Source: Oscillibacter sp. (GTDB lineage: Bacteria; Bacillota; Clostridia; Oscillospirales; Oscillospiraceae). Taken from it: DNA of 39,522 nt. The position numbers and the translations under genes were made by a program. Below, in pieces: positions 10,257 to 33,281 of this stretch. The stretch covers positions 1-39,522 of the forward strand of contig JAAWTB010000003.1 of the NCBI GenBank assembly GCA_022801815.1. Direction: 5' to 3'. The notes below the pieces were generated by a model that did no database searches, was not told the origin of the DNA, and saw only the letters and a program-made list of their open reading frames with translations. Numbering within the stretch: the first letter of the stretch is position 1; each line of letters opens with the position of its first letter.

Positions 10257-10341
10257 TCCCATACATTGTGTATATTTTCACGATTTGTTGAGAATAAATT
10301 CGTTTAAACACACAAAAAATCTTCCGGAAAATGATTAATGC

Positions 10342-10370: not shown

Positions 10371-10420
10371 GAAATTAAAATCCCGGTAATGGGAAGGTTT
10401 TTGCCCGCAAGCTGGAATCC

Positions 10421-10439
10421 AATTCCGCTCTACGGAATT
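10421..10439. promoter_or_regulatory. Inverted repeat AATTCCG-CTCTA-CGGAATT; candidate operator sharing half-sites with 8337-8351
   Basis: Perfect 7-bp arms. The same CGGAATT heptamer occurs at 8337-8351 and again near 10517-10523. Confidence 0.4.
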
Positions 10440-10650
10440 ACAAAACCTTCTTTTGCCGGCGCACAGGATAAAACGTTCGCCTTCTGCGAAAATTGGGGAG
10501 CTGCGTCCCGCGCCGTAAGACGCGGAATTTTGGGAACATGGGAGGGTTCCGTCCGAACGCAGCAGACGCATTCTGCCGTGCCTTCGCCGGGAGAACCGCA
10601 CAGTTTTGAATTGTGCATAATTGTGCATTTAGGAAGGAGCATTCGAAATT

Positions 10651-12084: not shown

Positions 12085-12196
12085 AGAATCAGGCGGCGTC
12101 TTCGCCTGTAAGAAGGGCCTGCTGCTTGCTGCTGTGGCAGGCGGCGGGCTCTTCCGCCCTTTTATCCCGGTTATTTTGGTAAGGAGGAAGCGTATT

Positions 12197-13918
12197 ATGA
12201 AGCAAAGAAGCGAAAAAGAACGTCTGCTCTGGGCTCAGTTTGACGCCCTGGAAATGGGCACCGGCTGGGACGACCAGGACATTACCCGTCCTCAGATTAT
12301 GGTGGAGAGCGTGTATGGCGACTCCCATCCCGGAAGCTATCACCTCAACCAGATGGCCGAGCAGGCGGTCTACGGCGTGTACGAGCGGGGCGGAAAGCCG
12401 GCCAAATACTACGCCACCGATATCTGCGACGGCTGCGCCCAGGGGCACGACGGCATGAACGTGGTCCTGGCCTCCCGGGAGGCCATTGCCAACATGGTGG
12501 AAGTACACGCCTCCGCAGTGCCCTGGGACGGCATCATCCTGTCTTCCAGCTGCGACAAGTCCATTCCCGCCCATCTGAAGGCCGCCGCCCGGATGGATAT
12601 TCCCACCATTTTCATGCCCGGCGGCTCCATGCGGCCCGGCCCCAACCAGACCACCTCCCTGGTAGCCGGGGACATCTCCCTGCGTCAGAAGCGCAAGGAT
12701 GCCATCACCGACCAGGAGGTCCGGGATTATAAGCTGACCGGCTGCCCCTCTGTGGGAGCCTGCACCTTCCTGGGCACCGCCTCCACCATGCAGTGCGTGG
12801 CCGAGGCCCTGGGCATGACCCTGCCCGGCGCGGCCCTGGTGCCCGCCACCATGCGGGATATCCTTCAGTACGCCCGATATGCCGGACGCAAAATCATGGA
12901 GCTGGCGGAAAAAGGCATCACCCCCAGCCAAATCATGACCCCCGCCGCCTTCCGCAACGCCATTATCGTCCACAGCGCCATCGGCGGGTCTACCAACGCC
13001 ACCATTCACCTCCCCTCCATCGCTCGGGAACTGGGCTATGACCTGCCCATCGACCTTTTTGACGAAATCAATCACCAGGTCCCCCATCTGGGCAACATCA
13101 ATCCCTCCGGCCAGCACCTGACGGAATCCTTCTGGTTTGCCGGCGGCGTGCCTATGGTGCAGTGGCTGCTGCGGAATATGCTGGACTTGAACGTCATGAC
13201 CGTCACAGGCAAAACTCTGGGCGAAAATCTGGAGGACCTGCAAAAAGACAACTGGTTTGACCGGAACCTTGGGTATCTGGCCAACTACGGCCTGACCCGC
13301 GAACAGGTGATCTTCCCGGTGGAAAAGGCCCCGGAAAAGGGGTCCGTCGCCATTTTGAAGGGCAATATTGCCCCTGAGGGCAGCGTGTTGAAGTACTCCG
13401 CCTGCGCCATGGACCAGCGTGAGGTAGTCAACGCCCGGGCCCGGGTCTTCAATCACGAGGAAGCCGCCCACGCCGCCGTGGTCAACAACGAAATCGCTCC
13501 CGGCGAGGTCATCATCATCCGCTACGAGGGCCCCCGGGGCTGCGGCATGCCGGAGATGCTGATGACCACCGAGGCCATCGTCTGCGACGAGCGCATCAAC
13601 GGCTCCGTGGCCCTGATTACGGATGGACGGTTTTCCGGTGCCACCCGGGGCGCGGCCATTGGACATGTCAGTCCCGAGGCAGCTGTGGGCGGTCCCATCG
13701 CCTTTATCGAAGACGGTGATCTCATTTCCTACAGCGTGGAAAACCGCACCATCAACATGACCGGCGTCCACGGCACACCCTGCACTGCGGAGGAGGCCGC
13801 GCGGGTTTTGGAAGAGCGTTCCAAGGCGGGCATCCAGCCCAAGGAGAAGCGGAAAGGCTTCTATAAAATGTACACCGACCATGCCCTGTCCGCCATGAAG
13901 GGCGCGGGCTTGGAGTAA
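12197..13918 (+). CDS. IlvD/Edd family dehydratase, resembling the YjhG/YagF sugar-acid (xylonate) branch
   Basis: CDGCAQGHDGM, SSCDKSIPAHLKAAARMDIPT, CPSVGACTFLGTASTMQCVAEALG, ITDGRFSGATRG. ATG 12197 behind AAGGAGGAAG. Confidence 0.88.
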   Translation: MKQRSEKERLLWAQFDALEMGTGWDDQDITRPQIMVESVYGDSHPGSYHLNQMAEQAVYGVYERGGKPAKYYATDICDGCAQGHDGMNVVLASREAIANMVEVHASAVPWDGIILSSSCDKSIPAHLKAAARMDIPTIFMPGGSMRPGPNQTTSLVAGDISLRQKRKDAITDQEVRDYKLTGCPSVGACTFLGTASTMQCVAEALGMTLPGAALVPATMRDILQYARYAGRKIMELAEKGITPSQIMTPAAFRNAIIVHSAIGGSTNATIHLPSIARELGYDLPIDLFDEINHQVPHLGNINPSGQHLTESFWFAGGVPMVQWLLRNMLDLNVMTVTGKTLGENLEDLQKDNWFDRNLGYLANYGLTREQVIFPVEKAPEKGSVAILKGNIAPEGSVLKYSACAMDQREVVNARARVFNHEEAAHAAVVNNEIAPGEVIIIRYEGPRGCGMPEMLMTTEAIVCDERINGSVALITDGRFSGATRGAAIGHVSPEAAVGGPIAFIEDGDLISYSVENRTINMTGVHGTPCTAEEAARVLEERSKAGIQPKEKRKGFYKMYTDHALSAMKGAGLE

Positions 13919-13951
13919 CCAGTTATTTGGGAAAGGAGAAATGAGGCTGCT

Positions 13952-14740
13952 ATGTATTCACCAACTATGCCGACCATGGACAGCGTGGCGAAATTTAAAG
14001 CCGCGCTGAACTCTGAGCGGGGCGCCCTGGGCCCCTTTATGATCACCTCTGACCCCGCCTTTGTGGAGGCTGCCGGTCACGCCGGATACGATTTCGCGCT
14101 GCTGGACATGGAGCACGGCCCCGGAAGTTTCCAAAACCTGCAAAACCTGATCCGCGCCGCCAACGTGGCGGGGGTCTGTCCCGTTGTCCGGGTTCCCCGG
14201 GGGACGGATATCTGGATTGACCGGGCGCTGGACGTGGGCGCAGGCGCAGTCCTGATTCCCCAGATTGACACCGCCGAACAGGCCAGGGCGGTGGTCTCCG
14301 CCGCCAAGTTCTCCCCCGTGGGCAGCCGGGGCACCTGCCGCTTCGTGCGCTCTGCGGGTTATGGCGCAATTCCCGGAAACGAATATTTTTCGAAGGCCCA
14401 GGAGACCGTGGTCATCATCCAGGCAGAGGGCCGGAAGGCTGTCGAAAATCTGGATGAGATTTTGGATGTTCCCGGCATTGACGTGATTTTTGTGGGCCCC
14501 TATGACCTGTCCAGCTCCCTGGGCCACGTAGGTGAAATTGACCACCCGGAGGTCACTGCGTGTATCAAGGAAATCATTGCCAAAGCCAATTCCAAGGGCG
14601 TGAAGCTGGGCTGCTTTGCCGACACGGTGGAAGGCGGCAAAAAATGGCGGGATTTGGGCGTGAAGTTTATCGGCTATTCCTGCGACACGTATCTGTTCTA
14701 TCAAAAAGCCAAAATGGACGTAGAATCTTTTTCCCGGTAA
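13952..14740 (+). CDS. HpcH/HpaI family aldolase (2-keto-3-deoxy acid / 4-hydroxy-2-oxo acid aldolase type)
   Basis: HAGYDFALLDMEHGPGSFQNLQNLIRAA, VRVPRGTDIWIDRALDVGAGAVLIPQIDTAEQA, DVIFVGPYDLSSSLG. Confidence 0.92.
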   Translation: MYSPTMPTMDSVAKFKAALNSERGALGPFMITSDPAFVEAAGHAGYDFALLDMEHGPGSFQNLQNLIRAANVAGVCPVVRVPRGTDIWIDRALDVGAGAVLIPQIDTAEQARAVVSAAKFSPVGSRGTCRFVRSAGYGAIPGNEYFSKAQETVVIIQAEGRKAVENLDEILDVPGIDVIFVGPYDLSSSLGHVGEIDHPEVTACIKEIIAKANSKGVKLGCFADTVEGGKKWRDLGVKFIGYSCDTYLFYQKAKMDVESFSR

Positions 14741-16713: not shown

Positions 16714-17820
16714 ATGGCAAAAGTTACGATTTTAGGTTCTGGAAACGCAGCGTGCGCCTACTCGGCCTATCTGGGAAAGCGCGGACATGAGGTTCGTCTT
16801 TATGACGCTCCCCGGTTTGAATCCAACCTCACTCCCATCCGGGAGTATGGCGGAATGGACATGGAGGGAGCCGACACCGGCTTCGGTCCCATCTCCATGG
16901 TGACGACGGATATCCAGCAGGCCGTTAAGGGCGTCAAGGTTTTGATGGTGGTCCTCCCTGCTTTTGGTCACAAGCCCATGGCAGAACAGCTGGCCCCTTA
17001 TCTGGAGGACGGACAGATCATCGTGCTCAATCCCGGCGCGGTCTTTGGCGCACTGGAGTTTTTAAACACTCTCCGCAGATGCGGCTGTCAAAAAAATATC
17101 CTGATGGGAGAACTGGCTTCCAACATCTTTGCCTGCCGCCGGGTGGGCCCTACCCGGGTAAACATTTTCGGTAAAAAGGCCGTTATGGAGACCGCCTGCA
17201 TCCCAGCCTCCCGAACGGAGGAGATGATTCAGGAGCTGAGCGTCTTCTTCCCTGACACCTACGTGCCGGTCCCCAACGTCATCCACACCAGCCTGAGCTA
17301 TACCAATCTGGTCATCCACCCTGCCGGTTCTATTTTGAACATGGGACGCATTGAGTGGACCCACGGCCACTACCGTTTTTATTGGGAGGGCCTGACCCCC
17401 GGCGTATGCCGCAACATTGAGCGCGTGGACGCCGAGCGGGTGGCCGTGGGCGCGGCTCTGGGGGCCAAGTTGGATACCGGCATGGATATTTTCCACCGCT
17501 ACTACGGACATCCCGAGCGGAAGACCTTTTATGACTTTTTCTCCAAGAGCGAAGTGAACGACAGCGTGGACAATCCCGCCTCCGCCCCCACGGACCTGAA
17601 AAGCCGTTACATAACGGAGGATTTCCCCTACGCCCTGGTGCCCCTGATGGCTGTGGGCAAGGCGGCGGGCGTCGAAACTCCAGTGATGGATTCCCTGACC
17701 ACCCTGGCCAGCGTGGCCAACGAAGAGGACTATCGTGCCACCGGCCGGACGCTGGAAAGTCTTGGTCTGGATGGTCTCAGCCCTGCGCAGATTGTGGACC
17801 GCTTTGTAAACGGTATCTAA
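16714..17820 (+). CDS. NAD/NADP octopine/nopaline dehydrogenase family protein (paralogue 1)
   Basis: VTILGSGNAACAYSAYLGKRGHEVRLYD Rossmann motif; C-terminal opine-DH-type domain (VIHPAGSILNMGRIEWTHGHYRFYWEGLTPGVCRNIERVDAER). Confidence 0.88.
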   Translation: MAKVTILGSGNAACAYSAYLGKRGHEVRLYDAPRFESNLTPIREYGGMDMEGADTGFGPISMVTTDIQQAVKGVKVLMVVLPAFGHKPMAEQLAPYLEDGQIIVLNPGAVFGALEFLNTLRRCGCQKNILMGELASNIFACRRVGPTRVNIFGKKAVMETACIPASRTEEMIQELSVFFPDTYVPVPNVIHTSLSYTNLVIHPAGSILNMGRIEWTHGHYRFYWEGLTPGVCRNIERVDAERVAVGAALGAKLDTGMDIFHRYYGHPERKTFYDFFSKSEVNDSVDNPASAPTDLKSRYITEDFPYALVPLMAVGKAAGVETPVMDSLTTLASVANEEDYRATGRTLESLGLDGLSPAQIVDRFVNGI

Positions 17821-17970: not shown

Positions 17971-18369
17971 TCAGTTCTCTTCATCCCGAACTCCGGCTAC
18001 AGCCTGGAGCTCGAACAGAAATTTCGGTGCGGTGAAGGTAACCTCCGTCACGCTGCGGGTCGTAGGAACGCCCTGACCCAGGAAATACTCGTCAAAGATC
18101 TGATTCATCAGGGCAAAGTCCTCCCGGTGGGCCAGGAAGCAGTCCACGTGAAGCACCATATCCATGCCGCTGCCGCCGGATTCCAGCGTGTTTTTCAGAC
18201 TCTCGAAGCAGCCGCGAATCTGCTCCTCCGCAGTTGTGGGCATCGTGCCGTCCGGACGCGTGGCGGAGTGCGCGGTGGTGAAAATCAGATCTCCATAGCG
18301 AATGGCTCTGGACCACTTGGTTTGCAGCGCGTCTCCCTTGGGAACAATTTGAATCTTTTTCGGCGCCAT
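17971..18369 (-). CDS. RidA family protein (enamine/imine deaminase type)
   Basis: LQTKWSRAIRYGDLIFTTAHSATRPDGTMPTTAEEQIRGCFESLKNTLESGGSGMDMVLHVDCFL; RidA-like length and motifs. Confidence 0.85.
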   Translation of the reverse strand: MAPKKIQIVPKGDALQTKWSRAIRYGDLIFTTAHSATRPDGTMPTTAEEQIRGCFESLKNTLESGGSGMDMVLHVDCFLAHREDFALMNQIFDEYFLGQGVPTTRSVTEVTFTAPKFLFELQAVAGVRDEEN

Positions 18370-18422
18370 AATTCGATTCCTTTCTGTTATTGATTTTATA
18401 ACACCCGGTACGATACCGGGCA

Positions 18423-19769
18423 CTATACACGAATGGCTTTCCACTCCCCCCTCCGGTAGTGGGAACGGATTGCGTACCAGCGCAGAATATGAGCGGCCAG
18501 ATAGCCGGCCCAGATGCCCATATGCCGCAGTCCCAGGGGATAGCACAGCCCCCAGGACAGGGCGGGCCGGATGAGGGCCACAATGATCAGCGTCACCCGC
18601 GCCACCGATTTGGTGTCTCCCGCGCCCCGCAGAGCGCCGAAGTACACCACCGCTCCGCAACAGGGCAGACTACCCGCCTCCACAAGCAAAAGCAGACGGC
18701 TTCCCGCCGCGGCCACATCGGCCTCCTTCACAAACAACCCCAAAAGCTCCTGGCGAAACAGCACGATGCCCACCCCAATGACAGCGGCGATTCCATAGCC
18801 AATTCCCAGGGAAATCCGGTTGTACCGCTCCGCCAGCTCCTCTTTCCCCGCCCCCAGGCTTTGCCCGGTCAGGGCGGTGGCGGCGGTGGCCACGCCGTCG
18901 TAGGTATAGCCCTGAAGATTGGCGATGTTCATCACAATCTGATAAAGGGCAAATTCCACCATTCCCAAAGACGCCGCCAGCCGGGTAAAGAGAAACAGGC
19001 CGATTCGCTGGCAGAGCTGCTCGTAAAATGCGCTGAAAACTATCCCCCGGACGGCCAGGAGCTTTTGCGGCTCTATGCGCCATGCGGCGGGTGCAAGGGG
19101 CAAAAACAGGACGCCCCCGGCCCCTCGCCGCACGGACCAGAGGGAGATAAGCAGAGCGCTGAGACTCCCCAGCGCAGTGGCTGCGGCGGCTCCGGCGACC
19201 TCCCAGCGGGGAAAGCCTAAATTTCCGAAAATAAAGAGATAATTACATACCACGTTCATCAGATTTGCGGCCAAATTAGTGGTCATAGACACCCGGGTCT
19301 TCCCCGCCGCCCGGAGGCAGGCGTTAACCGTCAGGCTGACGGATTGAAGCAGCTGCCCGGCCATCAGGATGCGAAAGTAGACCACGGAATCCCGCAGCGT
19401 GTCCGCGTCCGCGCCGGAAAACCGCATGAAGGGACGGGCCAGGCAGAATCCGCCTCCGTAAACCAGGGCCGATACCACCACGCAGAGAAGGACAAACTGC
19501 CGCATACAGCGGTTGGCATCCTCCGGACAGCCCTCTCCCATGCGGCGGCTCACCAGGACCGAGGCCCCGGTATTCAGGGCCAGCACCGGCATCAGCAATA
19601 TCCGCCGGGGCTGAATCGTAAGGCCCACCGCCGCCACGGCGGACAGTCCCAGCCGGGAAATCATGGCCATATCCACCAGTTCCACAATATTGACCAGCAG
19701 CGCCTCTACGGCAGCAGGCCACGCAATGGAGCAGGTAACCCGGAAAAGCTCACGCTCTCGCTGTTCCAT
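18423..19769 (-). CDS. MATE family efflux transporter
   Basis: 448 aa; MISRLGLSAVAAVGLTIQPRRILLMPVLALNTGASVLVSRRMGEG; TALTGQSLGAGKEELAERYNR. Confidence 0.92.
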   Translation of the reverse strand: MEQRERELFRVTCSIAWPAAVEALLVNIVELVDMAMISRLGLSAVAAVGLTIQPRRILLMPVLALNTGASVLVSRRMGEGCPEDANRCMRQFVLLCVVVSALVYGGGFCLARPFMRFSGADADTLRDSVVYFRILMAGQLLQSVSLTVNACLRAAGKTRVSMTTNLAANLMNVVCNYLFIFGNLGFPRWEVAGAAAATALGSLSALLISLWSVRRGAGGVLFLPLAPAAWRIEPQKLLAVRGIVFSAFYEQLCQRIGLFLFTRLAASLGMVEFALYQIVMNIANLQGYTYDGVATAATALTGQSLGAGKEELAERYNRISLGIGYGIAAVIGVGIVLFRQELLGLFVKEADVAAAGSRLLLLVEAGSLPCCGAVVYFGALRGAGDTKSVARVTLIIVALIRPALSWGLCYPLGLRHMGIWAGYLAAHILRWYAIRSHYRRGEWKAIRV

Positions 19770-19775
19770 ACACGC

Positions 19776-20636
19776 TTATGCGCCGGTTTTCCGCCGGCCG
19801 CTGCGATAGGACAGCACCCCGGCGGCCGTAATCAGAAGGGCCCCTATGACGGTGCTGGCTGACAAACGCTCATGCAACAGCAGCGTCCCAATCAGCGCAG
19901 AGAAAATGATGCCGGAGTAATCGTAGATGCTGACCTCCGCCGCCGGAGCCTTTTGATAGGCGTTAGTGATGAAGATTTGTCCCAGGGAGCCAAAGAGCCC
20001 AATGAGAATCAGCATAAACCACTGCTTGGGCGTGGGGAAAACCCAGCTTGGTATCATAAGTATACCCGCGCCCACCGTGCTGAACAGGGAAAAGTAGAAC
20101 ACCACGGTCATAGAGGGCACATGCCCTTTGCAATAGGATATCATGACATAGGCCACGCCGCAGCAAAGGGCGGAGAGCTCCGCCGACAGAAGCGGCAAAA
20201 TGCTGGAATCAAAGGTGGGACGCAGGGCCACCACCGTCCCCACCAGACACAGGGCGATCATGGGAATCTGCTCTTTGGAAATCCGTTCTTTTAAAATGAG
20301 GGCGGCAAACAGACACACCCACAAAATATTGGTCCGGTTCAGCACCGACACATCCCCTTGGGACGCGTGGGCGGAGGCATAGAAGAGAAGAATCATCCCC
20401 AAAAATCCAAACAGGGATCGGGCAAGCAGGGCGGGCTGATACTCTTTGGGCCCAAAGAAACGCAGCCCCTCCTTTTTAATAAGGTATGCCGCAACCAGCA
20501 GGCTGATGGAATTTCGGAAAAAAACCTGCTGCATAGTTCCAATTCCTGACGCGGAAAGCCGTACCATTGCCTGCATAAGGGAAAAAGAGAAGGCTGAGAG
20601 AATGATAAACAGGACTGCCTGGGTCTTTTCTTTCAT
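19776..20636 (-). CDS. EamA/DMT family transporter
   Basis: MKEKTQAVLFIILSAFSFSLMQAMVRLSASGIGTMQQVFFRNSISLLVAAYLIKKEG; ATG 20636 behind GGAG. Confidence 0.9.
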   Translation of the reverse strand: MKEKTQAVLFIILSAFSFSLMQAMVRLSASGIGTMQQVFFRNSISLLVAAYLIKKEGLRFFGPKEYQPALLARSLFGFLGMILLFYASAHASQGDVSVLNRTNILWVCLFAALILKERISKEQIPMIALCLVGTVVALRPTFDSSILPLLSAELSALCCGVAYVMISYCKGHVPSMTVVFYFSLFSTVGAGILMIPSWVFPTPKQWFMLILIGLFGSLGQIFITNAYQKAPAAEVSIYDYSGIIFSALIGTLLLHERLSASTVIGALLITAAGVLSYRSGRRKTGA

Positions 20637-20729
20637 GAAAGGAGTCTCCTTTTTGTCCGAGAGTCCATGACGACGGCTCATCGTCACGGCTCGGGAGCTC
20701 TCCCCGATAACGGAGAGAGCTCCCAGACA

Positions 20730-22751
20730 TTATTCTGCGGACGCTCCCTGCCCGCCGGCAGAGGCAGCCGCCTTCTTAATGGCCGACTTTTCACTGATAT
20801 AGAGGTATATCAGCACGATAAAGCCAATCAAATCCGTGATGTGCTCCGGGACAATGCACAGCAAGCCGCCCACCAGCGCGATGATCTGCTTCCATTTCAC
20901 CAGATTCCGCAGCAGGTAACCCTCCATTCCGATGGCCACCAGGTAAACGCCGATGATGGCGGTGCAGATGCATAAAACCACGTCCAGGATCGTCCCGCCG
21001 CCGCCGTTCAGGAGCATGCCGGGCTCATAGACGAAGACGAAGGGAACCAGGAAGGCAGGCATCGCCATTTTAAACGCCTGCCAGCCGCATTTCCCCGGAT
21101 TGCACCCCGCGATAGCCGCCGCAGCGTAGGAAGGCACCGCCACAGGAGGCGTGATGCAGGCAATGATGCCGAAGTAGAAGCAGAAGAAGTGCGCCGTCAG
21201 CATGGGGATGCCCAGCTTCATCAGCACAGGAGCCGTAACGGCGGCCTGGACGATATACACCGCCACCGTGGGCATGCCCATACCCATGATGATGGACATG
21301 ACCATCACCAGCAGCAAGGTGATGAACAGGTTGCCCTGAGAGATTTGCAGTACGGCGTTGCCCAGTACCGTGCCCACGTTGGTCAGGGTCACCACGCCGA
21401 TGATAAGACCCACGCAGGCGCAGGAGACGCCGAAGGAGACCGTTTTCCGCCCGCTGATCACCAGGGCGTTGAACATCTGCTTAAAGCTCATGCGGGTGGA
21501 CTTCTTGATGGGAGCCAGCAGCACGGTGAGAATCAAGCCGATCAGGGCCGCCCGGGAGATGGTGTACTGACGGATAATCATATACACCACCGCCAGGAAG
21601 GGAATCAGCAGATGGCCCCGCTCCCGCATGGCGTCTTTCAATTTGGGCAGCTGGTCCTTGGGAATTCCGGTAAGCCCCAGCTTCTTGCTGCGCACGTCCA
21701 CCGTCAGGAAAACGCTCAGGTAATAAAGGAAGCCGGGTATGAGGCCCGCCAGCATTACATTGGAATACGGAACGCCGATATACTCCGCCATGATGAAGCA
21801 GGCGGCGCCCATAACCGGGGGAATCAACTGTCCGCCGGTGGAGGCGCAGGCCTCCACAGCTCCGGCAAACTCCGGCGGGTAGCCCACGTTTTTCATCAGC
21901 GGGATGGTGAAGGTGCCCGTGCCCACCACGTTGGCGGCGGCGGCGCCGGAGATGGTGCCGAAGGCCGCCGAGGAGACCACCGCCACCTTGGCGGGACCGC
22001 CGGTCTTGTGGCCGGTGAGGGACAGCGCCACGTCTCGGATGAAATCGCCCATGCCGCACTCATTGAGGAATTGGCTGAAGAGAACGAACAAGGAAACGTA
22101 GGTGGCTGCAGTGCCCAGGGGGCTGCCGAAAATACCCTCGGGAATCATGAGCATGTAGTCGGTCATGCGGGCGATGCCGCCGGCCCTGGTACGAAACATG
22201 CCGGGCATATAATTGCCGAAGTAAGCATATACCAGGAAGACCAACGCCACCAGCGCCAATGCGCCGCTGACCAGCCGCCGGGTGCCTTCCAAAATCAGGA
22301 CTGTCAGGATGACGAAGACCAGCTGGTCCGTTCGATTGGAGATGCCCATGCGGGCAAGAATGGGCACGTAATTGATAAAGACATAGCCGCAGGTTATAAA
22401 AGAGGCCAGGGAAAACAGGTAATCATACCAAGGGACTTTGTTTTTCTTGGTCTTGGTGAAAGCAGGGTATACCAAGAAAAGAATGGTCATGGCCGCCAGC
22501 AGGTAGATGGAACGCTGGCGCAGAGCGTCAAAAGCGCCGAAAACCGCCGTGTAGATTAAGAAGAGGGAGATGAACAGGGAAAATCCGTTTACGATCAGAG
22601 CCGTGACCTTGTTCAGCTGCCGCTCGTTGTCCTCCGCGGAAACCTCCCGCAGAATTTCCTCCGCTTTTTCCGCGTCGAATTCGGCGTCAAGGGGCGCGGC
22701 GGAAGCCGTAGTCATATCCTCTGGTGACATATTCTTTTTGCTTTCTTCCAT
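20730..22751 (-). CDS. TRAP transporter fused (4TM/12TM) permease, TAXI type
   Basis: 673-aa multi-TM protein; GSPLGTAATYVSLFVLFSQFLNECGMGDFIRDVALSLTGHKTGGPAKVAVVSSAAFGTISGAAAANVVGTGTFTIPLMK. Confidence 0.94.
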   Translation of the reverse strand: MEESKKNMSPEDMTTASAAPLDAEFDAEKAEEILREVSAEDNERQLNKVTALIVNGFSLFISLFLIYTAVFGAFDALRQRSIYLLAAMTILFLVYPAFTKTKKNKVPWYDYLFSLASFITCGYVFINYVPILARMGISNRTDQLVFVILTVLILEGTRRLVSGALALVALVFLVYAYFGNYMPGMFRTRAGGIARMTDYMLMIPEGIFGSPLGTAATYVSLFVLFSQFLNECGMGDFIRDVALSLTGHKTGGPAKVAVVSSAAFGTISGAAAANVVGTGTFTIPLMKNVGYPPEFAGAVEACASTGGQLIPPVMGAACFIMAEYIGVPYSNVMLAGLIPGFLYYLSVFLTVDVRSKKLGLTGIPKDQLPKLKDAMRERGHLLIPFLAVVYMIIRQYTISRAALIGLILTVLLAPIKKSTRMSFKQMFNALVISGRKTVSFGVSCACVGLIIGVVTLTNVGTVLGNAVLQISQGNLFITLLLVMVMSIIMGMGMPTVAVYIVQAAVTAPVLMKLGIPMLTAHFFCFYFGIIACITPPVAVPSYAAAAIAGCNPGKCGWQAFKMAMPAFLVPFVFVYEPGMLLNGGGGTILDVVLCICTAIIGVYLVAIGMEGYLLRNLVKWKQIIALVGGLLCIVPEHITDLIGFIVLIYLYISEKSAIKKAAASAGGQGASAE

Positions 22752-22785
22752 GCAAGAACTCCTTTTACCGGATTTTGAGAGGAAA

Positions 22786-22821
22786 AGGCTGCCGGCCGGA
22801 CAAAGGTCGGGCCGGCAGCCT
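22786..22821 (-). terminator. Intra-operon attenuating hairpin between TAXI binding protein and permease genes
   Basis: AGGCTGCCGGCC ... GGCCGGCAGCCT, 12-bp perfect stem; on the minus strand followed by TTTTCC. Confidence 0.65.
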
Positions 22822-22858
22822 CCTTAGCTTTTAAGAGCGAACGGGGTTCAGGCGCGCA

Positions 22859-23926
22859 TTACAGAACGCCGACCTCCTGGTAATAGCGCATCGCGCCAGG
22901 ATGAATGGGCAGATCGGTGATGGACTTCACGTCGTCGATCTTCATGCCGGCCAGAGCAGCATGGAGCGGAGTCAGCTCGTCCACGTTCTCCCAGAGGTAC
23001 TTGGTAACTTCATAGACCAGCTCCTCGTCCACCTGCTTGGAAACGCCCAGCAGAGTGGGAGAGGAGAAACTGGGGAGCTCCTCGGTCTGATCCTTGAAGG
23101 TGTTGGCGGGAATGACATCGGGAACATAAGAGGCATACGGATCGTCGCCCTTGTCGCATACACCGTCAATGTAAGCCTGGGGTACGCCCACCACGTGAGC
23201 CTTGCCGGCATTGACCACTTCGATCATGATGGAGAAGGGAGCCTGGGCCAGAACCACCATGCCCTGAATGTGGCCGTCCTTCATGGCGTCGGCCGCCTCG
23301 GAAGAACCGAGATAAGCGGGGGTGAAGTCCTTGTCAAATTCCCAGCCGCAAACGCCCTCATAGAAGACATGGGCGAAGGCCTCGTCACCGGAGCCAGGGC
23401 CGCCGACACCGATGGATTTGCCCTTGAGGTCATCAAACTCCGCGACATCCGGAGAAACGAACTGCTGGAAAATAGCGGAGTACAACGGAGCCACGGCCAT
23501 AAGGTCGTCGCTGGGACCGGTAGACTCGAAAGTGTTGCGGCCGGTGCTGGATTCCACGAAGCAGGAACGGCCCACCATTCCGAAGTCACAAGTTCCGTTG
23601 CGCATGAACAGGGTGTTCTGCACGCCGCCGGTGGTGGCGGTGGCGGAGAACTGGCCAAAGCCCTTGTCGTTGAAAAACTGGGCCATCAGGGCGCCCACGG
23701 CGTTGTAGGTTCCGCCGGTGCCGCCGGTTCCCACAACATACTGCGCTGTGTTATCCAAATTTGAGGCGGGGGCGGTATCATTGGTGCTGCCGGTATCAGA
23801 CGGAGTGGAATCGGAACTGCCGCTGGGTGGCGGGGTGGTACTGGAAGAAGAATCGCCGCTTCCTCCGCAAGCGGCCAGAGCGAACACCATGCACATGGCC
23901 AGGACCAGAGATAATACCTTTTTCAT
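22859..23926 (-). CDS. TAXI family TRAP transporter solute-binding lipoprotein
   Basis: Lipobox LALAACGG; YVVGTGGTGGTYNAVGALMAQFFNDKG; GKSIGVGGPGSGDEAFAHVFYEGV. Confidence 0.93.
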   Translation of the reverse strand: MKKVLSLVLAMCMVFALAACGGSGDSSSSTTPPPSGSSDSTPSDTGSTNDTAPASNLDNTAQYVVGTGGTGGTYNAVGALMAQFFNDKGFGQFSATATTGGVQNTLFMRNGTCDFGMVGRSCFVESSTGRNTFESTGPSDDLMAVAPLYSAIFQQFVSPDVAEFDDLKGKSIGVGGPGSGDEAFAHVFYEGVCGWEFDKDFTPAYLGSSEAADAMKDGHIQGMVVLAQAPFSIMIEVVNAGKAHVVGVPQAYIDGVCDKGDDPYASYVPDVIPANTFKDQTEELPSFSSPTLLGVSKQVDEELVYEVTKYLWENVDELTPLHAALAGMKIDDVKSITDLPIHPGAMRYYQEVGVL

Positions 23927-24011
23927 TTTCAACCTCCATGTTTTACTTTTGTAAATTTCCCCTTGCTATCTTGCACGGGGGGCACAGCGTACCCCGCCGG
24001 ACAATTCTCAA

Positions 24012-25088
24012 TCAAAGCATCGCGTAAATTTCCTCCCGCGTCTTGCCGGCAAGGCCGAGTTTTTCCGCCGTGCGGCCTTCAGCGGCAAAGTCCCGCCCGC
24101 AGATTACGCTGGCAATCAAGATGTAAGCGTCCATTATAGGAGTCTTCACGCCCAGCATATGCCCGACGGAGGCCAGCGGGACGATGCCGCTGAGGGTATC
24201 CTCCACAATAAAGCGGTGCTGGAGATTCATGGGACTCTTCAGCCCCTTATAGGCCGCGTTATGCTGAAGCAGGTCGTAGAGATCCTCCTGGGTCAGGCCG
24301 TACATTTCCTGGAGGCTCTTCACCAGAGAAGGAACCTCCAGCCCCAGGGCCTTGCACACCGCCAGACGCTCGGCGTCGCAGGCGGAAACCAGCTTGGCAA
24401 TGCTGGGGGTGATCCCCTCCATGTAATAATCATAGCCCTGCTGCAAATCTGTGTGGTTGATGTTCATCAGGCTGGGAATCGGGTGGAGCATCGCGCCGCC
24501 GCCCTCAAAACCGGTTTCCAAAATATTCTCAGCTGCCGTCAGGTTGGGGAAGATGCCGCCGATTTTCTCCATCAGGCGGGACACATCCGAGGCGGGAAGC
24601 GTTGCAACCAGGACGCCCTTCTTAATACCGGACTGGAAGGTTTCCCCAATTTCAGAGGTGCGGCAGGCATACATCAAATCTCCGGCCTCCGCAATAATCA
24701 CATCCGCTTTGCAGCCGTGGATGTTGCGGATAATATTGCTGACCTCCAGGGCGCCGCCTACGTGACCCGGATTCAGCATGAAAATTTCGCCGTCGTGGAG
24801 ATAAGGCGCACAGAGGTCCGCGATTTCCGCGTGGGCGTCTGTGGTTGTGGTCACCATAATGACGTCTACGCCCTCCACCGCCGGCCCGATTTCCGTGGTG
24901 GCCAGAGCCGGGAAGCCTTCACACTCCATTTTCCCTGTTACACGAATGTTTCCCAACTCGTTGAGGCGGGCAATTTTTGCCTTGTCATTGTCGTAAAGGC
25001 GGACCTCATATCCCTGGCTGCTCAAAATCGCAGCCATGCTCTGCCCGCCGGCGCCAGCGCCCAAAACAGCGAATTTCAATGTGCCCAT
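24012..25088 (-). CDS. NAD/NADP octopine/nopaline dehydrogenase family protein (paralogue 2)
   Basis: LKFAVLGAGAGGQSMAAILSSQGYEVRLYDND; GGAMLHPIPSLMNINHTDLQQGYDYYMEGITPSIAKLVSACDAERLAVCKALG. Confidence 0.88.
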   Translation of the reverse strand: MGTLKFAVLGAGAGGQSMAAILSSQGYEVRLYDNDKAKIARLNELGNIRVTGKMECEGFPALATTEIGPAVEGVDVIMVTTTTDAHAEIADLCAPYLHDGEIFMLNPGHVGGALEVSNIIRNIHGCKADVIIAEAGDLMYACRTSEIGETFQSGIKKGVLVATLPASDVSRLMEKIGGIFPNLTAAENILETGFEGGGAMLHPIPSLMNINHTDLQQGYDYYMEGITPSIAKLVSACDAERLAVCKALGLEVPSLVKSLQEMYGLTQEDLYDLLQHNAAYKGLKSPMNLQHRFIVEDTLSGIVPLASVGHMLGVKTPIMDAYILIASVICGRDFAAEGRTAEKLGLAGKTREEIYAML

Positions 25089-25175: not shown

Positions 25176-25204
25176 ATCATAAACGACGATTCACTTTTTG
25201 TCAA
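25176..25204 (-). promoter_or_regulatory. Promoter of the opine-DH/TAXI-TRAP/DMT/MATE/RidA operon
   Basis: On the minus strand: TTGACA-17 nt-TATGAT. Confidence 0.7.
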
Positions 25205-25421: not shown

Positions 25422-26213
25422 ATGCCCCAAACCTCTCACCGTTCCACTTCGCGTGTCCTGGACGTCTTTGACCTCCTGGCCAATGCGCCGGGAGGATATA
25501 CGCTTACTGAAATTGCCCGGATTCTCGCCTCTCCCAAAAGCAGCATGCTGCCTATTTTACAGACGCTGGCGGCCCGAAATTACATCCAACTGAAAAACGG
25601 CCGCTATTATATCGGTCCAAGCCTGTACTTTGCCGCGTCGGTCTACCGCAAGCAGATATCCGTCAATAAGTTCATCGACATGGAGATGAAACGGCTGGCC
25701 ACCGCCATCGAAGAATCCTCCATTCTGGCCGTGCGGGAAGGAAGCAAGGCCCTGTTTATCCACATGTCGGCCTGTCAGGATCCAGTACACTGCCAAAAAT
25801 CCGTGGGACTGCGAGAGGACGGTCCCCGTGGCGCGATGGGAAAGGCCCTGCTCTGTGATTTTAAGCTGGACGAGCTGGCTCATCTGGTGGCGAAGGACGG
25901 CGTCCGCCTGCCGGACCCCTTAAACCTTTACCAAGCCCATGTGCAGATGGAGGAAGCCCGCGTCGTGAACATCGCCTATGAATCCGGAGAAATTGAATAC
26001 GCCATCCACTGCATGGCGTCCCCCATTCGCCATGGGGGGAAAATAGCCGCCGCCCTTGGAATTATCCTGCCCACCTTCCGCCTGACGCCCAAAAAATCCG
26101 CAGACGCCGAGATCAATCTGCGACTGGCGGTGCAAAAAATCGAAAACGTAATCGCCTCCTCCGACGAAAGTGTTCAGGAAATTTTTTCGGTTAATGGCTT
26201 TCGAAACCTGTAG
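25422..26213 (+). CDS. IclR family transcriptional regulator
   Basis: RVLDVFDLLANAPGGYTLTEIARILASPKSSMLPILQTLAARNYIQLKNGRYYIGPSLYF; C-terminal IclR effector domain. Confidence 0.9.
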   Translation: MPQTSHRSTSRVLDVFDLLANAPGGYTLTEIARILASPKSSMLPILQTLAARNYIQLKNGRYYIGPSLYFAASVYRKQISVNKFIDMEMKRLATAIEESSILAVREGSKALFIHMSACQDPVHCQKSVGLREDGPRGAMGKALLCDFKLDELAHLVAKDGVRLPDPLNLYQAHVQMEEARVVNIAYESGEIEYAIHCMASPIRHGGKIAAALGIILPTFRLTPKKSADAEINLRLAVQKIENVIASSDESVQEIFSVNGFRNL

Positions 26214-26548: not shown

Positions 26549-28228
26549 ATGACGCAAAAGGAACCTGCCATTCGAAGTTATGATGATGACATCCGGCATT
26601 CCAGCCCCCATGCGCTGCTGCGCGGTCTTGGACTGGCCAAAGAGGATTTGAAAAAGCCTCGTGTTGCCATCATCAACACCTGGAATTCCATCAATCCCGG
26701 TCATGTCCACCTGGACACGCTGGCGGAGTTTGTCAAGGAGGGAATCCTGGAAGCCGGCGGCCTTCCCTTTAATTTCAATATTACCAATATTTGTGACGGC
26801 ATCGGCGCCGGGCCCTACATTCTGGCGTCCCGTGACCTGATGTGCAACGAAATCGAGACGATTATGGACGGCTGCCAGCTGGACGCCATGGTGCTGCTGG
26901 CAACCTGCGACAAAAACGTCCCCGGCATTTTGATGGGCGCCGCCCGGATGGACCTGCCCGCGGTCATCGTTACCGGAGGATATATGCAGACCTCCTACGA
27001 AATCGACGGCAGCATTGTAGACGGCATCACCATTGGAAACTCCTGCGGCGCGGTGACCGAGGGCTGCATGACCATGGAGCAGCTGGAGCACCAGATGGAT
27101 ATTGCCTGTCCCGCTCCTGGTGCCTGCGGCTTTATGGGTACCGCCAATACCATGTGTACGCTGACGGAGGCCATGGGCATGAGCCTTCCCGGCAACGCCA
27201 CCCTGCCCGCCATCTCCACCCACCTGAAAATCACCGCCCGGGAGGCGGGACGCCGGGTCATGGAGCTGTGGAGAAAGGGAATTACCGCCCGACAGATTAT
27301 CACCAAGGAATCCGTGACCAATGCCATCAAGGTCTGCATGGCAATCGGCGGATCCACCAACACCATGATGCACATTCCTGCCGTGGCCGCAGAGGCGGGA
27401 CTGGATATGGACTGCTGGGACGTCTACGACCAGGCTTCCCACGAGATTCCCCTGCTGATGAACGTCCGGCCCACCGGCGCTTACACCATGTTCGACTTCG
27501 ACCAGGCCGGAGGCCTCCGGGCGCTGATGCATGAGATTCAGGACCACCTGAATCTGGACTGCGTGGGCGTCAACGGAAAGACGGTGAAGGAAAACATTGC
27601 CGGGCACAAGACGCCTTATCCCGAAACTATCCGTCCCATGGATAACCCCTTTACCAAAGACGGCGGCATCTGCATTCTCAAGGGCAACATCGCTCCGGAC
27701 GGCTGCGCCGCCAAACAGTCCACCTTCCCCCGGAACATGCTGAAATTCCGGGGCCCCGCCAAGGTGTTCTTCAGCAATCAGGAGGCCTGCGAGGCCCTGC
27801 GGGCCGGAAAAATTCAGGCTGGTGACGCGGTGGTCATCATGATGATGGGCGCCAAGGCCGGTCCCGGCATGCTCAGCGCCTACGGCTTTACCTCGGAGCT
27901 GGCGGGCACCAGCCTGTGGGACAAGGTCTGCCTCATCACCGATGGGCGTTTCTCCGGCGCGGCCAAGGGCGCCATTACCGGCTACTGCTCGCCGGAGGCG
28001 GGTCTCAAAGGACCCATCTGCGCCGTTCGGGACGGGGACATCATCACTTACGACGTGGAGGCCCGGACCATCAACGTGGAACTCTCCGACCAGGAGATTG
28101 CCCAGCGGGTGAAGGAGTTTGACCGGGAGGTCGTTTATTACGACGGCTTCATCGGCATGTATCAAAAGACCGTAACCTCTTTGAAAACCGGCGCTGTCCT
28201 GCGGCCCACCGGTCCCCGGAAATCATAA
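26549..28228 (+). CDS. IlvD/Edd family dehydratase, tandem copy 1
   Basis: NTWNSINPGHVHLDTLAEFVKEG, NICDGIGAGPYILASRD, LLATCDKNVPGILMGAARMDLPAV, CPAPGACGFMGTANTM, ITDGRFSGAAKG. Confidence 0.9.
   Translation: MTQKEPAIRSYDDDIRHSSPHALLRGLGLAKEDLKKPRVAIINTWNSINPGHVHLDTLAEFVKEGILEAGGLPFNFNITNICDGIGAGPYILASRDLMCNEIETIMDGCQLDAMVLLATCDKNVPGILMGAARMDLPAVIVTGGYMQTSYEIDGSIVDGITIGNSCGAVTEGCMTMEQLEHQMDIACPAPGACGFMGTANTMCTLTEAMGMSLPGNATLPAISTHLKITAREAGRRVMELWRKGITARQIITKESVTNAIKVCMAIGGSTNTMMHIPAVAAEAGLDMDCWDVYDQASHEIPLLMNVRPTGAYTMFDFDQAGGLRALMHEIQDHLNLDCVGVNGKTVKENIAGHKTPYPETIRPMDNPFTKDGGICILKGNIAPDGCAAKQSTFPRNMLKFRGPAKVFFSNQEACEALRAGKIQAGDAVVIMMMGAKAGPGMLSAYGFTSELAGTSLWDKVCLITDGRFSGAAKGAITGYCSPEAGLKGPICAVRDGDIITYDVEARTINVELSDQEIAQRVKEFDREVVYYDGFIGMYQKTVTSLKTGAVLRPTGPRKS
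27701..27773 (+). repeat. 73-nt near-identical block, copy 1 (inside dehydratase 1)
   Basis: Differs from 29401-29473 at only 2 positions, both synonymous. Confidence 0.8.
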
Positions 28229-28248
28229 AGAAAGAAGGGTAAACAATT

Positions 28249-29916
28249 ATGGAAGAGAAAAGGCACCTGAATAGTGTACGGCCCTTCGGCACCAGTGCGG
28301 TCAACGGCAAAGCCCTGATGCTGGGCCTTGGATATACCCGTGAAGATTTGCAAAAGCCCAGAATCGGCATCATCAATACCTGGAGCGACTACAATCCCGG
28401 CCATCTGCACCTGCGGGACCTGGCTCGCGCCGTCACTGACGGCGTCTGCGAGGCCGGCGGCCTTCCCTGCAACTTCAACGTCATGAACTTCTGCGACGGT
28501 CTTCAGCCCAAGGGCCCCTATGCGCTTGTCTCCCGGGACATGATTACCAACTCTGTGGAGGTTATGGCCCGCTCTCAGGACCTGGACGCCATGGTGCTGA
28601 TTGCCACCTGCGACAAAAATGTCCCTGCCATGGTCATGGCTGCAGCCCGGGTTAACATCCCCGCCATTGTACTTACCGGCGGACATATGAAATCCAATAT
28701 CTACCAGGGCAAACTGGTGGATTTCATCGACATCAACAAGACCGTTTCCGCCGTGGAGGAGGGCCGCTGCTCCATGGAGTACCTGGACGGTCTGGTGGAC
28801 TGCGCCTGCCCGGGCGTAGGCGCCTGCAACATGATGGGCACTGCCAATACCATGCAGATTGTCACCGAGACCTTGGGCATGAGCCTGCCGGGCAACGCCA
28901 CTGTCTCCGCTGCCGGGAAGACGCTGATCCGCTACGCCCGGGAGGCGGGACGTCAGGTGATCCGTCTGTGGGAGAAGAATATCCGCCCCAGGGACATCAT
29001 CACCGAAAAATCCGTGAACAACGCCGTCCGGATGGTCATGGCCGTGGGCGGCTCTACCAATACCATGTACCACGTGCCCGCTATCGCCAGTGAGGCCGGG
29101 CTTAGCTGCTCTGTTTGGGACATCTACGACGCGGCTTCTCACGAGGTACCGCTGCTGATGACCATCCGTCCTGTGGGCCCCTATACCATCGACGACTTTG
29201 AGCGGGCCGGCGGCGTCCGGGCCATGTGCACGAATATCAAGAAAACCCTGCACTTGGACTGCCTGACAGTCAACGGCAAAACCCTGGGTGAGAACATTGA
29301 AGGCCATGAGGTTCTGGACCGGGAGGTCATCCACCCCATGGATCAGCCCTACAGCGACGACGGCGGCATCTGCATCCTCAAGGGCAATATCGCCCCCGAA
29401 GGCTGCGCCGCCAAGCAGTCCACCTTCCCCCGGAACATGCTGAAATTCCGGGGCCCCGCCAAGGTTTTCTTCACTACGGAGGACGCTATCAACGGCCTGT
29501 ATGACGGGCGCATTGTGGAAGGCGACTTCGTCGTCATCCTCCACCAGGGCGCCAAGGGCGGCCCCGGCATGACCAGCGTTTACGGCTTCACCTCCGCCCT
29601 GGCCGGCTCTTCCCTGGCAGGCAAGTGCGCCATGGTCTCCGACGGACGCTTCTCCGGCGCGGCGGCAGGCGCCATCATTGGCTACGCCTCTCCCGAGGCC
29701 GCCCTGCGGGGCCCCATCTGCGCGGTGCAGGATGGGGATATGATCAGCTATGATATCGAGACCCGCACCATCCACGCCGAGCTCTCCGACGAGGAAATCG
29801 CCAAGCGGATTGAAGCCTTTGACAAGGAAGTGGATTGGCAGACCGGCTGTCTGGGCATGTACCAGAGCTGGGTGGGCTCCCTGGCCAGGGGTGCAGTGCT
29901 CTCCGGCAAAAATTAA
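28249..29916 (+). CDS. IlvD/Edd family dehydratase, tandem copy 2
   Basis: NTWSDYNPGHLHLRDLARAVTDG, NFCDGLQPKGPYALVSRD, LIATCDKNVPAMVMAAARVNIPAI, CPGVGACNMMGTANTM, VSDGRFSGAAAG. Confidence 0.9.
   Translation: MEEKRHLNSVRPFGTSAVNGKALMLGLGYTREDLQKPRIGIINTWSDYNPGHLHLRDLARAVTDGVCEAGGLPCNFNVMNFCDGLQPKGPYALVSRDMITNSVEVMARSQDLDAMVLIATCDKNVPAMVMAAARVNIPAIVLTGGHMKSNIYQGKLVDFIDINKTVSAVEEGRCSMEYLDGLVDCACPGVGACNMMGTANTMQIVTETLGMSLPGNATVSAAGKTLIRYAREAGRQVIRLWEKNIRPRDIITEKSVNNAVRMVMAVGGSTNTMYHVPAIASEAGLSCSVWDIYDAASHEVPLLMTIRPVGPYTIDDFERAGGVRAMCTNIKKTLHLDCLTVNGKTLGENIEGHEVLDREVIHPMDQPYSDDGGICILKGNIAPEGCAAKQSTFPRNMLKFRGPAKVFFTTEDAINGLYDGRIVEGDFVVILHQGAKGGPGMTSVYGFTSALAGSSLAGKCAMVSDGRFSGAAAGAIIGYASPEAALRGPICAVQDGDMISYDIETRTIHAELSDEEIAKRIEAFDKEVDWQTGCLGMYQSWVGSLARGAVLSGKN
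29401..29473 (+). repeat. 73-nt near-identical block, copy 2 (inside dehydratase 2)
   Basis: GGCTGCGCCGCCAAGCAGTCCACCTTCCCCCGGAACATGCTGAAATTCCGGGGCCCCGCCAAGGTTTTCTTCA; see 27701-27773. Confidence 0.8.
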
Positions 29917-29945
29917 CCCTTCTTTCCCAAAGGGCAAACCGGCTT

Positions 29946-29978
29946 CCCGCGCCGCCTGATTCCTTCCGGCGGCGCGGG
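29946..29978 (+). other. Strong intercistronic hairpin between dehydratase 2 and panB-like gene; lacks a T-tract
   Basis: CCCGCGCCGCC ... GGCGGCGCGGG. Confidence 0.5.
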
Positions 29979-30048
29979 GAAACCGGCACAGTTCCACGGG
30001 ATTGAACCAACACCTCTCGCCAAGGAGGTGGTTGTTTCCCCCATAAAG

Positions 30049-30061
30049 TTAAGCAGCTTAA
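30049..30061. promoter_or_regulatory. Palindrome TTAAG-CAG-CTTAA upstream of the panB-like gene
   Basis: Third site of the shared TTAAG-N3-CTTAA motif; here the symmetry extends to TTAAGC-A-GCTTAA. Confidence 0.5.
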
Positions 30062-30089
30062 TTATTTAACGGAAAAGGAGCCGTGCATT

Positions 30090-30953
30090 ATGAAAAAGAA
30101 GTCTGTAATTGATCTCTACAACATGAAGAAAAACGGAGAACTGGCGTCCTGGATTACGGCCTATGACTTCCCCTTTGCCTCTTTTACCGAGCAGGCGGGG
30201 ATTGACATGATCCTGGTGGGGGACTCTATGGGCATGGTCGTGGAAGGCTACGACAGCACCATTCCCGTCACAATGGACACCTGCATTGAGCACTGCCAGG
30301 CCGTCCGCCGGGGTGCGCCGAATACCTTTGTGGTAGGCGACATGCCCTTTGGCTCTTATCAGGTCTCCGACGAGGACGCCGCCGCCAACGCCATCCGCTT
30401 TTTGAAAGAAGGCGGCGTGGACGCCATAAAGCTGGAGGGCGGACGCTCCGTCGTCAGCCGGATCAAGGCGATTCGGAACTGCGGCATTCTGGTGTTCGGT
30501 CACATTGGCCTGACGCCCCAGTCCTCCGGCGTGCTGGGCGGGCACAAGGCCCAGGGCCGGACGGTGGAAAGCGCCCGCAGCGTGATTGAAGACGCCCTGG
30601 CCGTGGAGGCGGCGGGGGCCAACTTCCTTTTGGTAGAGGCCGTTCCCCCCGAGGTGACCCAGGAGATTCACAAACTGCTGAGCATTCCCGTGTACTCCAT
30701 CGGCGCGGGTCCCTTCTGCGACGGCCAGCTGACCATCTTCGCCGATACCATCGGCATGTTCCAGGCCTTTACCCCGAAATTTATCAAGAAGTACGCGGAG
30801 ATTGCCCCTATTGTCATTGAGGCGTATAAGCAGTATAATGAAGAAATCAAGTCCCGCCAGTTCCCCACAGACGATTATGTCTATCATGTCATCGGCGATA
30901 TCGCTCCCTTCCAGGAGCTCTTTGCCGAATACGACGCCAAGCTTGACAAATGA
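30090..30953 (+). CDS. panB: 3-methyl-2-oxobutanoate hydroxymethyltransferase (PanB) family protein
   Basis: ITAYDFPFASFTEQAGIDMILVGDSMGMVVEGYDSTIPVT, VGDMPFGSY, IKLEGG, GHIGLTPQSSGVLGGHKAQGR, SIGAGPFCDGQ. Confidence 0.9.
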   Translation: MKKKSVIDLYNMKKNGELASWITAYDFPFASFTEQAGIDMILVGDSMGMVVEGYDSTIPVTMDTCIEHCQAVRRGAPNTFVVGDMPFGSYQVSDEDAAANAIRFLKEGGVDAIKLEGGRSVVSRIKAIRNCGILVFGHIGLTPQSSGVLGGHKAQGRTVESARSVIEDALAVEAAGANFLLVEAVPPEVTQEIHKLLSIPVYSIGAGPFCDGQLTIFADTIGMFQAFTPKFIKKYAEIAPIVIEAYKQYNEEIKSRQFPTDDYVYHVIGDIAPFQELFAEYDAKLDK

Positions 30954-30973
30954 ACCTTTGTTAAGGAGTGCAT

Positions 30974-32650: not shown

Positions 32651-32660
32651 GGAGCAGGAT

Positions 32661-33281
32661 ATGGAGTTTTTAAACAGCAGCATTCTGGAATTCTCCCAAC
32701 AGCTTGCCTCCTCCGCCCCGGTTCCCGGGGGCGGAGGAGCCAGCGCCCTGGCGGGCGCCCTGGGCGTCGCCTTGGGCAATATGGTGGGGGAACTCACGGT
32801 GGGAAAACCCCGTTATGCCTCCGTGGAAGCGGAAATGAAATCGCTGATGGCCAAGGCCCAGGACCTGCGGGGCCGCCTTCTCGCCTGTGTGGAGCGCGAC
32901 GCGGCAGCATTTGAACCCCTCTCCAGGGCCTATGGAATTCCCAAGGACGACCCCAGCCGGGAAGCGGTGATGGAGCAGTGCCTGCGGGACGCCGCCGCCG
33001 TGCCTCTGGAAATCCTGGAGCTCTGCGGTCAGGCCCTGGAACTCCAGCGGGAATTTTCCGCAAAGGGCAGCCGGCTGGTCGCCTCCGATGCAGCCACCGG
33101 CGCGGCTTTGTGCTGGGGCGCTATGCAGGGGGCCGCCATCAATGTCCGGGTAAATACCAGGCTGATGCGGGAACGGCCCTACGCGAAGGAAATCGAAGAC
33201 CGCGTAGACGCGCAGCTGAACACATACGGAGAGCTTGCCCGGCAAATCATTGCGGGCGGCAAGGAGGATGCGGATGGCTAA
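32661..33281 (+). CDS. fchA: Cyclodeaminase/cyclohydrolase family protein (methenyl-THF cyclohydrolase, FchA type)
   Basis: SSILEFSQQLASSAPVPGGGGASALAGALGVALGNMVGELTVGKPRYASVEAEM; FTCD-C type. Confidence 0.88.
   Translation: MEFLNSSILEFSQQLASSAPVPGGGGASALAGALGVALGNMVGELTVGKPRYASVEAEMKSLMAKAQDLRGRLLACVERDAAAFEPLSRAYGIPKDDPSREAVMEQCLRDAAAVPLEILELCGQALELQREFSAKGSRLVASDAATGAALCWGAMQGAAINVRVNTRLMRERPYAKEIEDRVDAQLNTYGELARQIIAGGKEDADG

Follow-up and report, generated by a model that had tools for sequence, protein, structure and literature searches.

Introduction

Outside animals and crown gall, little is known of what NAD-linked opine dehydrogenases do physiologically. The same is stated for bacteria other than Agrobacterium in PMC4575208, and Arthrobacter sp. 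1C, which grows on an opine and has an NAD-linked enzyme, provides a precedent for opine catabolism (PMC4575208). For the opine dehydrogenase of this strain (1BG6), those parts of the literature that were examined describe no operon comparable to the one considered here. We analysed one whole contig of 39,522 bases (hereafter, the window) from a 65% complete genome of Oscillibacter sp., focusing on a unit of six minus-strand genes that encode an opine dehydrogenase-family enzyme (ODH1), a TAXI-type TRAP importer (a binding protein and a fused permease), EamA- and MATE-family transporters and a RidA-family protein. This cluster is real, conserved and uncharacterised, and the enzyme most consistently associated with its dehydrogenase lineage is an iron–sulphur (Fe-S) dehydratase.

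The unit partially resembles several described systems. Like dbuABC of P. putida, it is predicted to combine import with the oxidation of a C–N bond, hydrolysis of the resulting imine by a Rid protein and a divergent regulator; dbuABC, however, comprises a D-amino acid oxidase acting on D-branched-chain amino acids, Rid2 and a transporter, lacks an NAD-linked enzyme of the opine dehydrogenase type, and has no TRAP, dehydratase or exporter component (PMC12724383). The octopine and nopaline regions of Ti plasmids (occ and noc) similarly pair an importer with the oxidative cleavage of a secondary amine dicarboxylic acid, but use Oox/Nox oxidases and ABC permeases where the unit has a PF02317 protein and a TAXI-TRAP importer (PMC4575208); a further likeness is that ornithine cyclodeaminase (OCD)-family genes adjoin some of the distant ODH homologues identified here. 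Finally, the glutamate transporters of the VcGluP type combine a TAXI binding protein with a TRAP membrane component, as does the unit (PMC11574862). Neither an opine dehydrogenase/TRAP/RidA pathway nor a link between such dehydrogenases and dehydratases is described in the open-licence literature searched, in agreement with the initial annotation of the window, to which no characterised pathway with this gene combination was known.

Results and discussion

All six genes annotated initially were found on the minus strand, running from 25088 to 17971 in the order ODH1-TAXI-TRAP-EamA-MATE-RidA with intergenic gaps of 79, 107, 84, 6 and 47 bp, and all six proteins score above the curated cut-offs of Pfam or TIGRFAM profiles. 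ODH1 (24012..25088; 358 aa) is an NAD(P)-dependent oxidoreductase of PF02317 (1.9e-41, 142 bits), starting at the ATG at 25088, which is preceded by an AGGAGG ribosome-binding site. It is followed by a TAXI-family TRAP solute-binding lipoprotein with the lipobox LAAC (22859..23932; TIGR02122, 207.9 bits, cut-off 84.35), a TRAP transporter fused permease (20730..22751; TIGR02123, 656.3 bits, cut-off 320.65), an EamA/DMT-family transporter that is a probable exporter (19776..20645, the open frame reaching 20687 if a GTG start is used; PF00892, 9.9e-32, 110 bits), a MATE-family exporter (18423..19769; TIGR00797, 211.2 bits, cut-off 147.4) and a RidA/YjgF-family imine/enamine deaminase (17971..18375; PF01042, 2.3e-17, 63.6 bits, cut-off 27.3). 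Not reported in the initial annotation were a divergent IclR-family gene, two IlvD/Edd-family dehydratase genes beyond it and a second PF02317 dehydrogenase, ODH2. The IclR gene (25422..26213, plus strand; PF01614/PF09339), a divergent orthologue of which adjoins the ODH gene in three related loci (L033, L034 and L035), is the likely regulator of the unit. On its far side, an adjacent operon encodes dehydratases a (26549..28228, plus strand; PF00920, 7.2e-106) and b (28249..29916, plus strand; PF00920, 3.4e-109), which are 59% identical to each other.

Searching 86 genomes of the genus at the protein level, together with tblastn of the window proteins on gene neighbourhoods, revealed that the unit recurs in three other Oscillibacter-like genomes, in two of which it retains TAXI and TRAP. 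The order is IclR<>ODH-TAXI-TRAP-IlvD-nitroreductase-EamA-RidA in G040 (L033) and G054 (L035), and IclR<>ODH-EamA-IlvD-RidA in G011 (L034). An IlvD-type dehydratase is thus located inside the unit in all three relatives, an EamA orthologue is present in all four loci (termed type C below), and MATE is found in the window only. A nitroreductase-family gene of small size (~165 aa) recurs in ODH loci of all three types distinguished below, A, B and C (L033, L035, L040, L086, L087 and L090), but the window unit lacks it. RidA and the in-unit IlvD are the most conserved genes of the type-C unit, with pairwise identities of 88-92% and 90-92%, respectively, the values for the other genes being 72-86% (TRAP), 68-77% (ODH), 57-75% (EamA), 56-85% (IclR) and 52-81% (TAXI). 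In the window copy, the transporter and the regulator have diverged, the TAXI protein being merely 52-53% identical to those of the sister units, and RidA has not (89-92% identity to the other type-C copies). Because the synteny, on whose conservation the initial annotation had made its interpretation depend, extends to other genomes, the grouping is neither a product of chance nor specific to one strain.

Over its entire length, ODH1 aligns with the Arthrobacter opine dehydrogenase 1BG6 (phmmer, 7.9e-76), and its AlphaFold model (pLDDT 93.5) displays the two-domain opine dehydrogenase fold with an Octopine_DH domain, superposing on 1BG6 with a TM score of 0.92 and an rmsd of 1.6 A (Foldseek). 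An ordinary ketopantoate reductase, a possibility that the initial annotation had itself raised, might be suspected from the weak matches of ApbA and glycerol-3-phosphate dehydrogenase profiles to the N-terminal Rossmann part and from the presence of a PanB gene 5 kb away. However, the PanE model scores only 31.8 bits against a cut-off of 141, its match is limited to the N-terminal 100 aa, the PanE C-terminal domain is missing, ketopantoate reductases reach a TM score of only ~0.62 against the ODH1 model, and no PanC was found in this incomplete genome. As both this assignment and a chance grouping of unrelated neighbours are contradicted by the fold and the conserved synteny, we rejected them as highly improbable.

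The catalytic His-Asp dyad and the Arg residue of ODH1 (His202, Asp297 and Arg292) align with those of 1BG6 and do not vary across alignments of 14 and of 24 sequences. The substrate pocket differs. A key Trp is described as conserved in opine dehydrogenases and, as Trp278 of the Pecten enzyme, binds the amino-acid partner (PMC10787698, PMC2924402). ODH1 contains no tryptophan in its entire sequence, so this active-site residue is missing, a Ser taking the place of the substrate-domain Trp of 1BG6. In the alignment, where the Pecten and Arthrobacter Trp residues are offset by one helical turn, the Trp column holds S or T in type-C loci, mostly S, A or R in type-A loci and predominantly H in type-B loci (see below), with many other PF02317 homologues retaining W. 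The site at which characterised enzymes discriminate between Phe and Asp (A111/N198 or R111/G198) is His109/Gly198 in ODH1, compared in 1BG6 with A111/N198, the pair that selects Phe over Asp. Metagenomic enzymes from hot springs (mODHs) resemble ODH1 in having Gly198 faced by a basic or polar residue, which is Arg in mODHs and His in ODH1; unlike ODH1, they have the Trp as well as the catalytic dyad, with L-Asp as the preferred substrate (PMC10787698). In addition, the VPxxxH motif is replaced by TTTDAH in ODH1. Judging from the model and these alignments, ODH1 is an opine dehydrogenase scaffold with intact chemistry residues and an altered substrate pocket. Its place in the opine dehydrogenase family thus agrees with the initial annotation, but since the conserved Trp is lost, a classical opine is a less likely substrate than had been assumed there.

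Homologues of ODH1 were gathered by profile from a genome collection and from samples taken at family and class level; a single-sequence query on the genome contigs gave no match, and an alignment query returned 24 loci, 14 of them with an ODH. Where named, the close relatives of the unit belong to Oscillibacter-like or other Oscillospiraceae, and a search of plasmids produced just one distant Arthrobacter match. A maximum-likelihood tree of 59 sequences, built by a quick search with SH-aLRT as its only support measure, places ODH1 in a group of 19, of which an 18-member core has 98% support and the branch including the nineteenth member (L041) has 86%. A Fe-S dehydratase or an ammonia-lyase is encoded in the neighbourhood of all 19 members; two of them are near-identical, the contig of L094 spans 4 kb, and the members are not independent of one another. 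Equally large neighbourhoods from outside the group seldom hold such dehydratases, the exceptions being L046, L052 and the loci L149-L151 with SdaA and OCD genes. The dehydratase type switches along the ODH phylogeny: four ODHs grouped with 99% support are accompanied by IlvD (type C), seven lie by UxaA/GarD-type dehydratases, most of them with SBP5/Dpp importers (type A), and others adjoin serine dehydratases and, in most cases, DctP-type TRAP genes (type B). Most loci of the clade also contain TRAP or SBP5/Dpp importers together with IclR, LysR or GntR genes, EamA is frequent across the clade, and the Trp is missing in nearly all dehydratase-linked members, being retained in its column by the basal L041 and L107. 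The Fe-S dehydratase, the most consistent partner of this lineage, was overlooked in the initial interpretation, whose synteny, enzyme family and RidA membership otherwise stand.

This partnership brings into play a reductive, opine-type sink, of the kind that anaerobic invertebrates operate with octopine or alanopine. The dehydratase would turn an imported dihydroxy acid (serine in the relatives) into a 2-oxo-3-deoxy acid, which ODH1 would condense reductively with an amine, thereby regenerating NAD(P)+, before EamA exports the product. IlvD, GarD/UxaA and serine dehydratase are different families that all yield 2-oxo-3-deoxy acids, the class of keto substrates used by opine dehydrogenases, so that a swap of dehydratase would be a swap of keto acid; moreover, SdaA lies beside ODH and an OCD/alanine dehydrogenase-like gene in related loci, and EamA genes are frequent, a tentative parallel to the reported export of opines such as pseudopaline by EamA-type transporters. 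Nonetheless, we consider this scheme unlikely for the unit, because RidA would destroy the very imine required for condensation, ODH1 lacks the Trp to which the amino-acid partner binds, and the regulators and importers look catabolic. As a general property of the Trp-less lineage, with interchangeable Fe-S dehydratases feeding a condensation that re-oxidises NAD(P)H and ends in export, a redox sink appears improbable. If true, it would represent a fermentation route of gut Clostridia new to the literature searched, releasing opine-like metabolites into the gut.

The same dehydratases, being of the sugar-acid type, are also compatible with sugar-acid catabolism, in which ODH1 would have lost its opine specificity and would interconvert a 2-oxo(-3-deoxy) acid and its 2-hydroxy counterpart upstream or downstream of the Fe-S dehydratase step, nearby HpcH/HpaI aldolases completing the pathway. 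HpcH/HpaI genes indeed lie by the ODH operon in L086 and L087 and are 69-70% identical to the window's own, the altered pocket (the lost Trp, TTTDAH in place of VPxxxH) would suit a changed specificity, the His-Asp dyad serves hydroxy-acid chemistry as well, and TRAP systems often carry organic acids. Yet the nearest fold is that of an opine dehydrogenase rather than a 2-hydroxy-acid dehydrogenase, and RidA and the members linked to serine dehydratases are left unexplained, which makes this proposal doubtful.

The RidA subtype of the unit (E below 1e-30) occurs in 4 of the 86 genomes, always at this locus, and these are exactly the genomes with this ODH lineage, bearing out the inclusion of RidA in the unit as initially annotated. 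The protein retains the equivalent of Arg105 (TTRS, the TRS of which aligns with ARS of 1xrg) and the Glu. At 48.1 bits, it does not reach the cut-off of the RidA subfamily TIGR00004 (106 bits); judged by sequence, it is a Rid protein whose membership in the archetypal RidA subfamily that score does not support. The strict co-inheritance of RidA with ODH and its high conservation fit the release of an imine by ODH and are the best argument for it.

As for transport, the TAXI protein adjoins the fused permease, as in TAXI-TRAP transporters, and its alignment with VcGluP is too remote for a safe transfer of ligand residues. The co-occurrence of ODH with EamA, and with SBP5-type importers in the relatives, recalls the outline of cnt-type loci for the biosynthesis or recycling of opine metallophores. 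This resemblance is, however, very unlikely to reflect function: ODH1 belongs to PF02317 and not to the staphylopine type, which appears among its structure matches at rank 5 and below, none of the window genes scanned against Pfam was recognised as nicotianamine synthase-like, and the regulators are of the IclR, LysR or GntR families rather than metal-responsive. With neither a staphylopine-type dehydrogenase nor a nicotianamine synthase-like gene found among the scanned genes, a cnt locus was rejected.

We tentatively favour catabolic uptake and oxidation, a reading whose chances, taken as a whole, fall a little short of even. The cluster of these gut Oscillospiraceae probably handles an amino-acid-like nutrient. 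TAXI-TRAP would import an organic acid, probably amino-acid-like or resembling an N-substituted amino acid; ODH1, with NAD(P)+, would oxidise the C–N bond beside the carboxylate to give a 2-imino acid, whose hydrolysis to a 2-oxo acid RidA would accelerate; and EamA, joined by MATE in this strain, would export the product or surplus substrate. The Fe-S dehydratase, which would be the in-unit IlvD in the relatives and probably the adjacent IlvD pair in the window, may contribute to this pathway by acting on an acid with a beta-hydroxyl group, with IclR sensing the substrate or an intermediate. The gene content and its conservation, the fold, the catalytic dyad and the linkage to dehydratases and RidA are observed, whereas the substrate class, the direction and the order of the steps, and likewise import, imine formation and export, are inferred; the combination of importers with IclR, LysR or GntR genes is typical of catabolic operons.

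Several observations weigh against this interpretation. The ODH reaction is reversible, and ODH1 lacks the Trp with which opine dehydrogenases bind their substrate, so that its own substrate may be something other than a classical opine. The substrates of IlvD and GarD are hydroxy acids, the source of which in an opine-type cleavage is unexplained, and since all three dehydratase types yield 2-oxo-3-deoxy acids, the reductive and sugar-acid models accommodate them equally well. No RidA was found within 10 kb of the ODH loci of the GarD and serine dehydratase types. Furthermore, the window unit itself contains no dehydratase; those across the IclR gene constitute a weaker link than in the relatives, the window's own IlvD pair is only 53% identical to the relatives' in-unit IlvD (90-92% among themselves) and not orthologous to it, and no copy nearer to the in-unit IlvD than the window pair was found in this incomplete genome. 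The clade-wide link to importers and swappable dehydratases, the lost Trp and the co-inherited Rid protein make the role testable, and this small gene set could lead to a nutrient, or an excreted metabolite, not previously described for common gut bacteria.

Other features of the window and related loci

Upstream of ODH1, a sigma-70-like promoter, TTGACA-17-TATGAT (25176..25204, minus strand), matches 11 of the 12 consensus positions and is the best match of its region. The consensus promoter proposed initially is plausible only, as the region's total of 7 such matches does not exceed chance (5.3 +/- 2.3 in shuffled sequences). ODH2 (16714..17820, plus strand; PF02317, 3e-41) is ~35% identical to ODH1, convergent with the unit and placed on a separate branch of the tree; as a member of a different sub-branch, it probably lies outside the six-gene unit, and its membership there was not favoured.

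Among the related loci, the ODH1 orthologue of G085 (L040 9504-10570, minus strand) is in two pieces, indicating a possible pseudogene or an assembly error, and is still adjoined by nitroreductase, SBP5, Dpp and GarD genes. In a separate set (L148, L155 and L158), TAXI, DUF1850, a fused TRAP permease and ODH are combined independently with an ornithine cyclodeaminase/mu-crystallin gene. A distant PF02317 branch (L142-L147, L152-L154 and L159-L160) adjoins a conserved protein of ~550 aa whose N-terminal part is a B12-binding domain, accompanied in L146 and L147 by a D-Ala-D-Ala ligase-like ATP-grasp gene, a homologue of which is present in L145.

Within the window, the two dehydratase genes open an operon-like run (26549-34745, plus strand) that continues with PanB, formate-tetrahydrofolate (THF) ligase, an FchA-type methenyl-THF cyclohydrolase, FolD and 5-formyl-THF cyclo-ligase. 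This run could convert a sugar acid into a 4-hydroxy-2-oxo acid, which PanB would split by retro-aldol cleavage into a 2-oxo acid and methylene-THF, the latter yielding formate and ATP. PanB (30090-30950, plus strand) passes the NCBIfam panB equivalog cut-off, and PanC (PF02569) is absent from this genome, 65% complete, and from 83 of the 86 genus genomes, among them G082 and G005, which are near-complete and have PanB; the window PanB may therefore not serve pantothenate synthesis. Its closest relatives, in L112, L113 and L114 (86, 86 and 59% identity), are followed by a class I/II aminotransferase-family gene, called by Pfam in L112 and L114 and by homology in L113, which suggests a transamination/hydroxymethyl-transfer pair. 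A second PanB group (L116, L117 and L118; 43-46% identity) is located near formate-THF ligase, behind a GntR-like gene, L116 additionally containing FolD and the cyclohydrolase. Finally, the genes at 8531-14740 (plus strand), encoding IclR, an SDR dehydrogenase, a GntP permease, an IlvD/Edd dehydratase and an HpcH/HpaI aldolase, form a probable sugar-acid catabolic operon.

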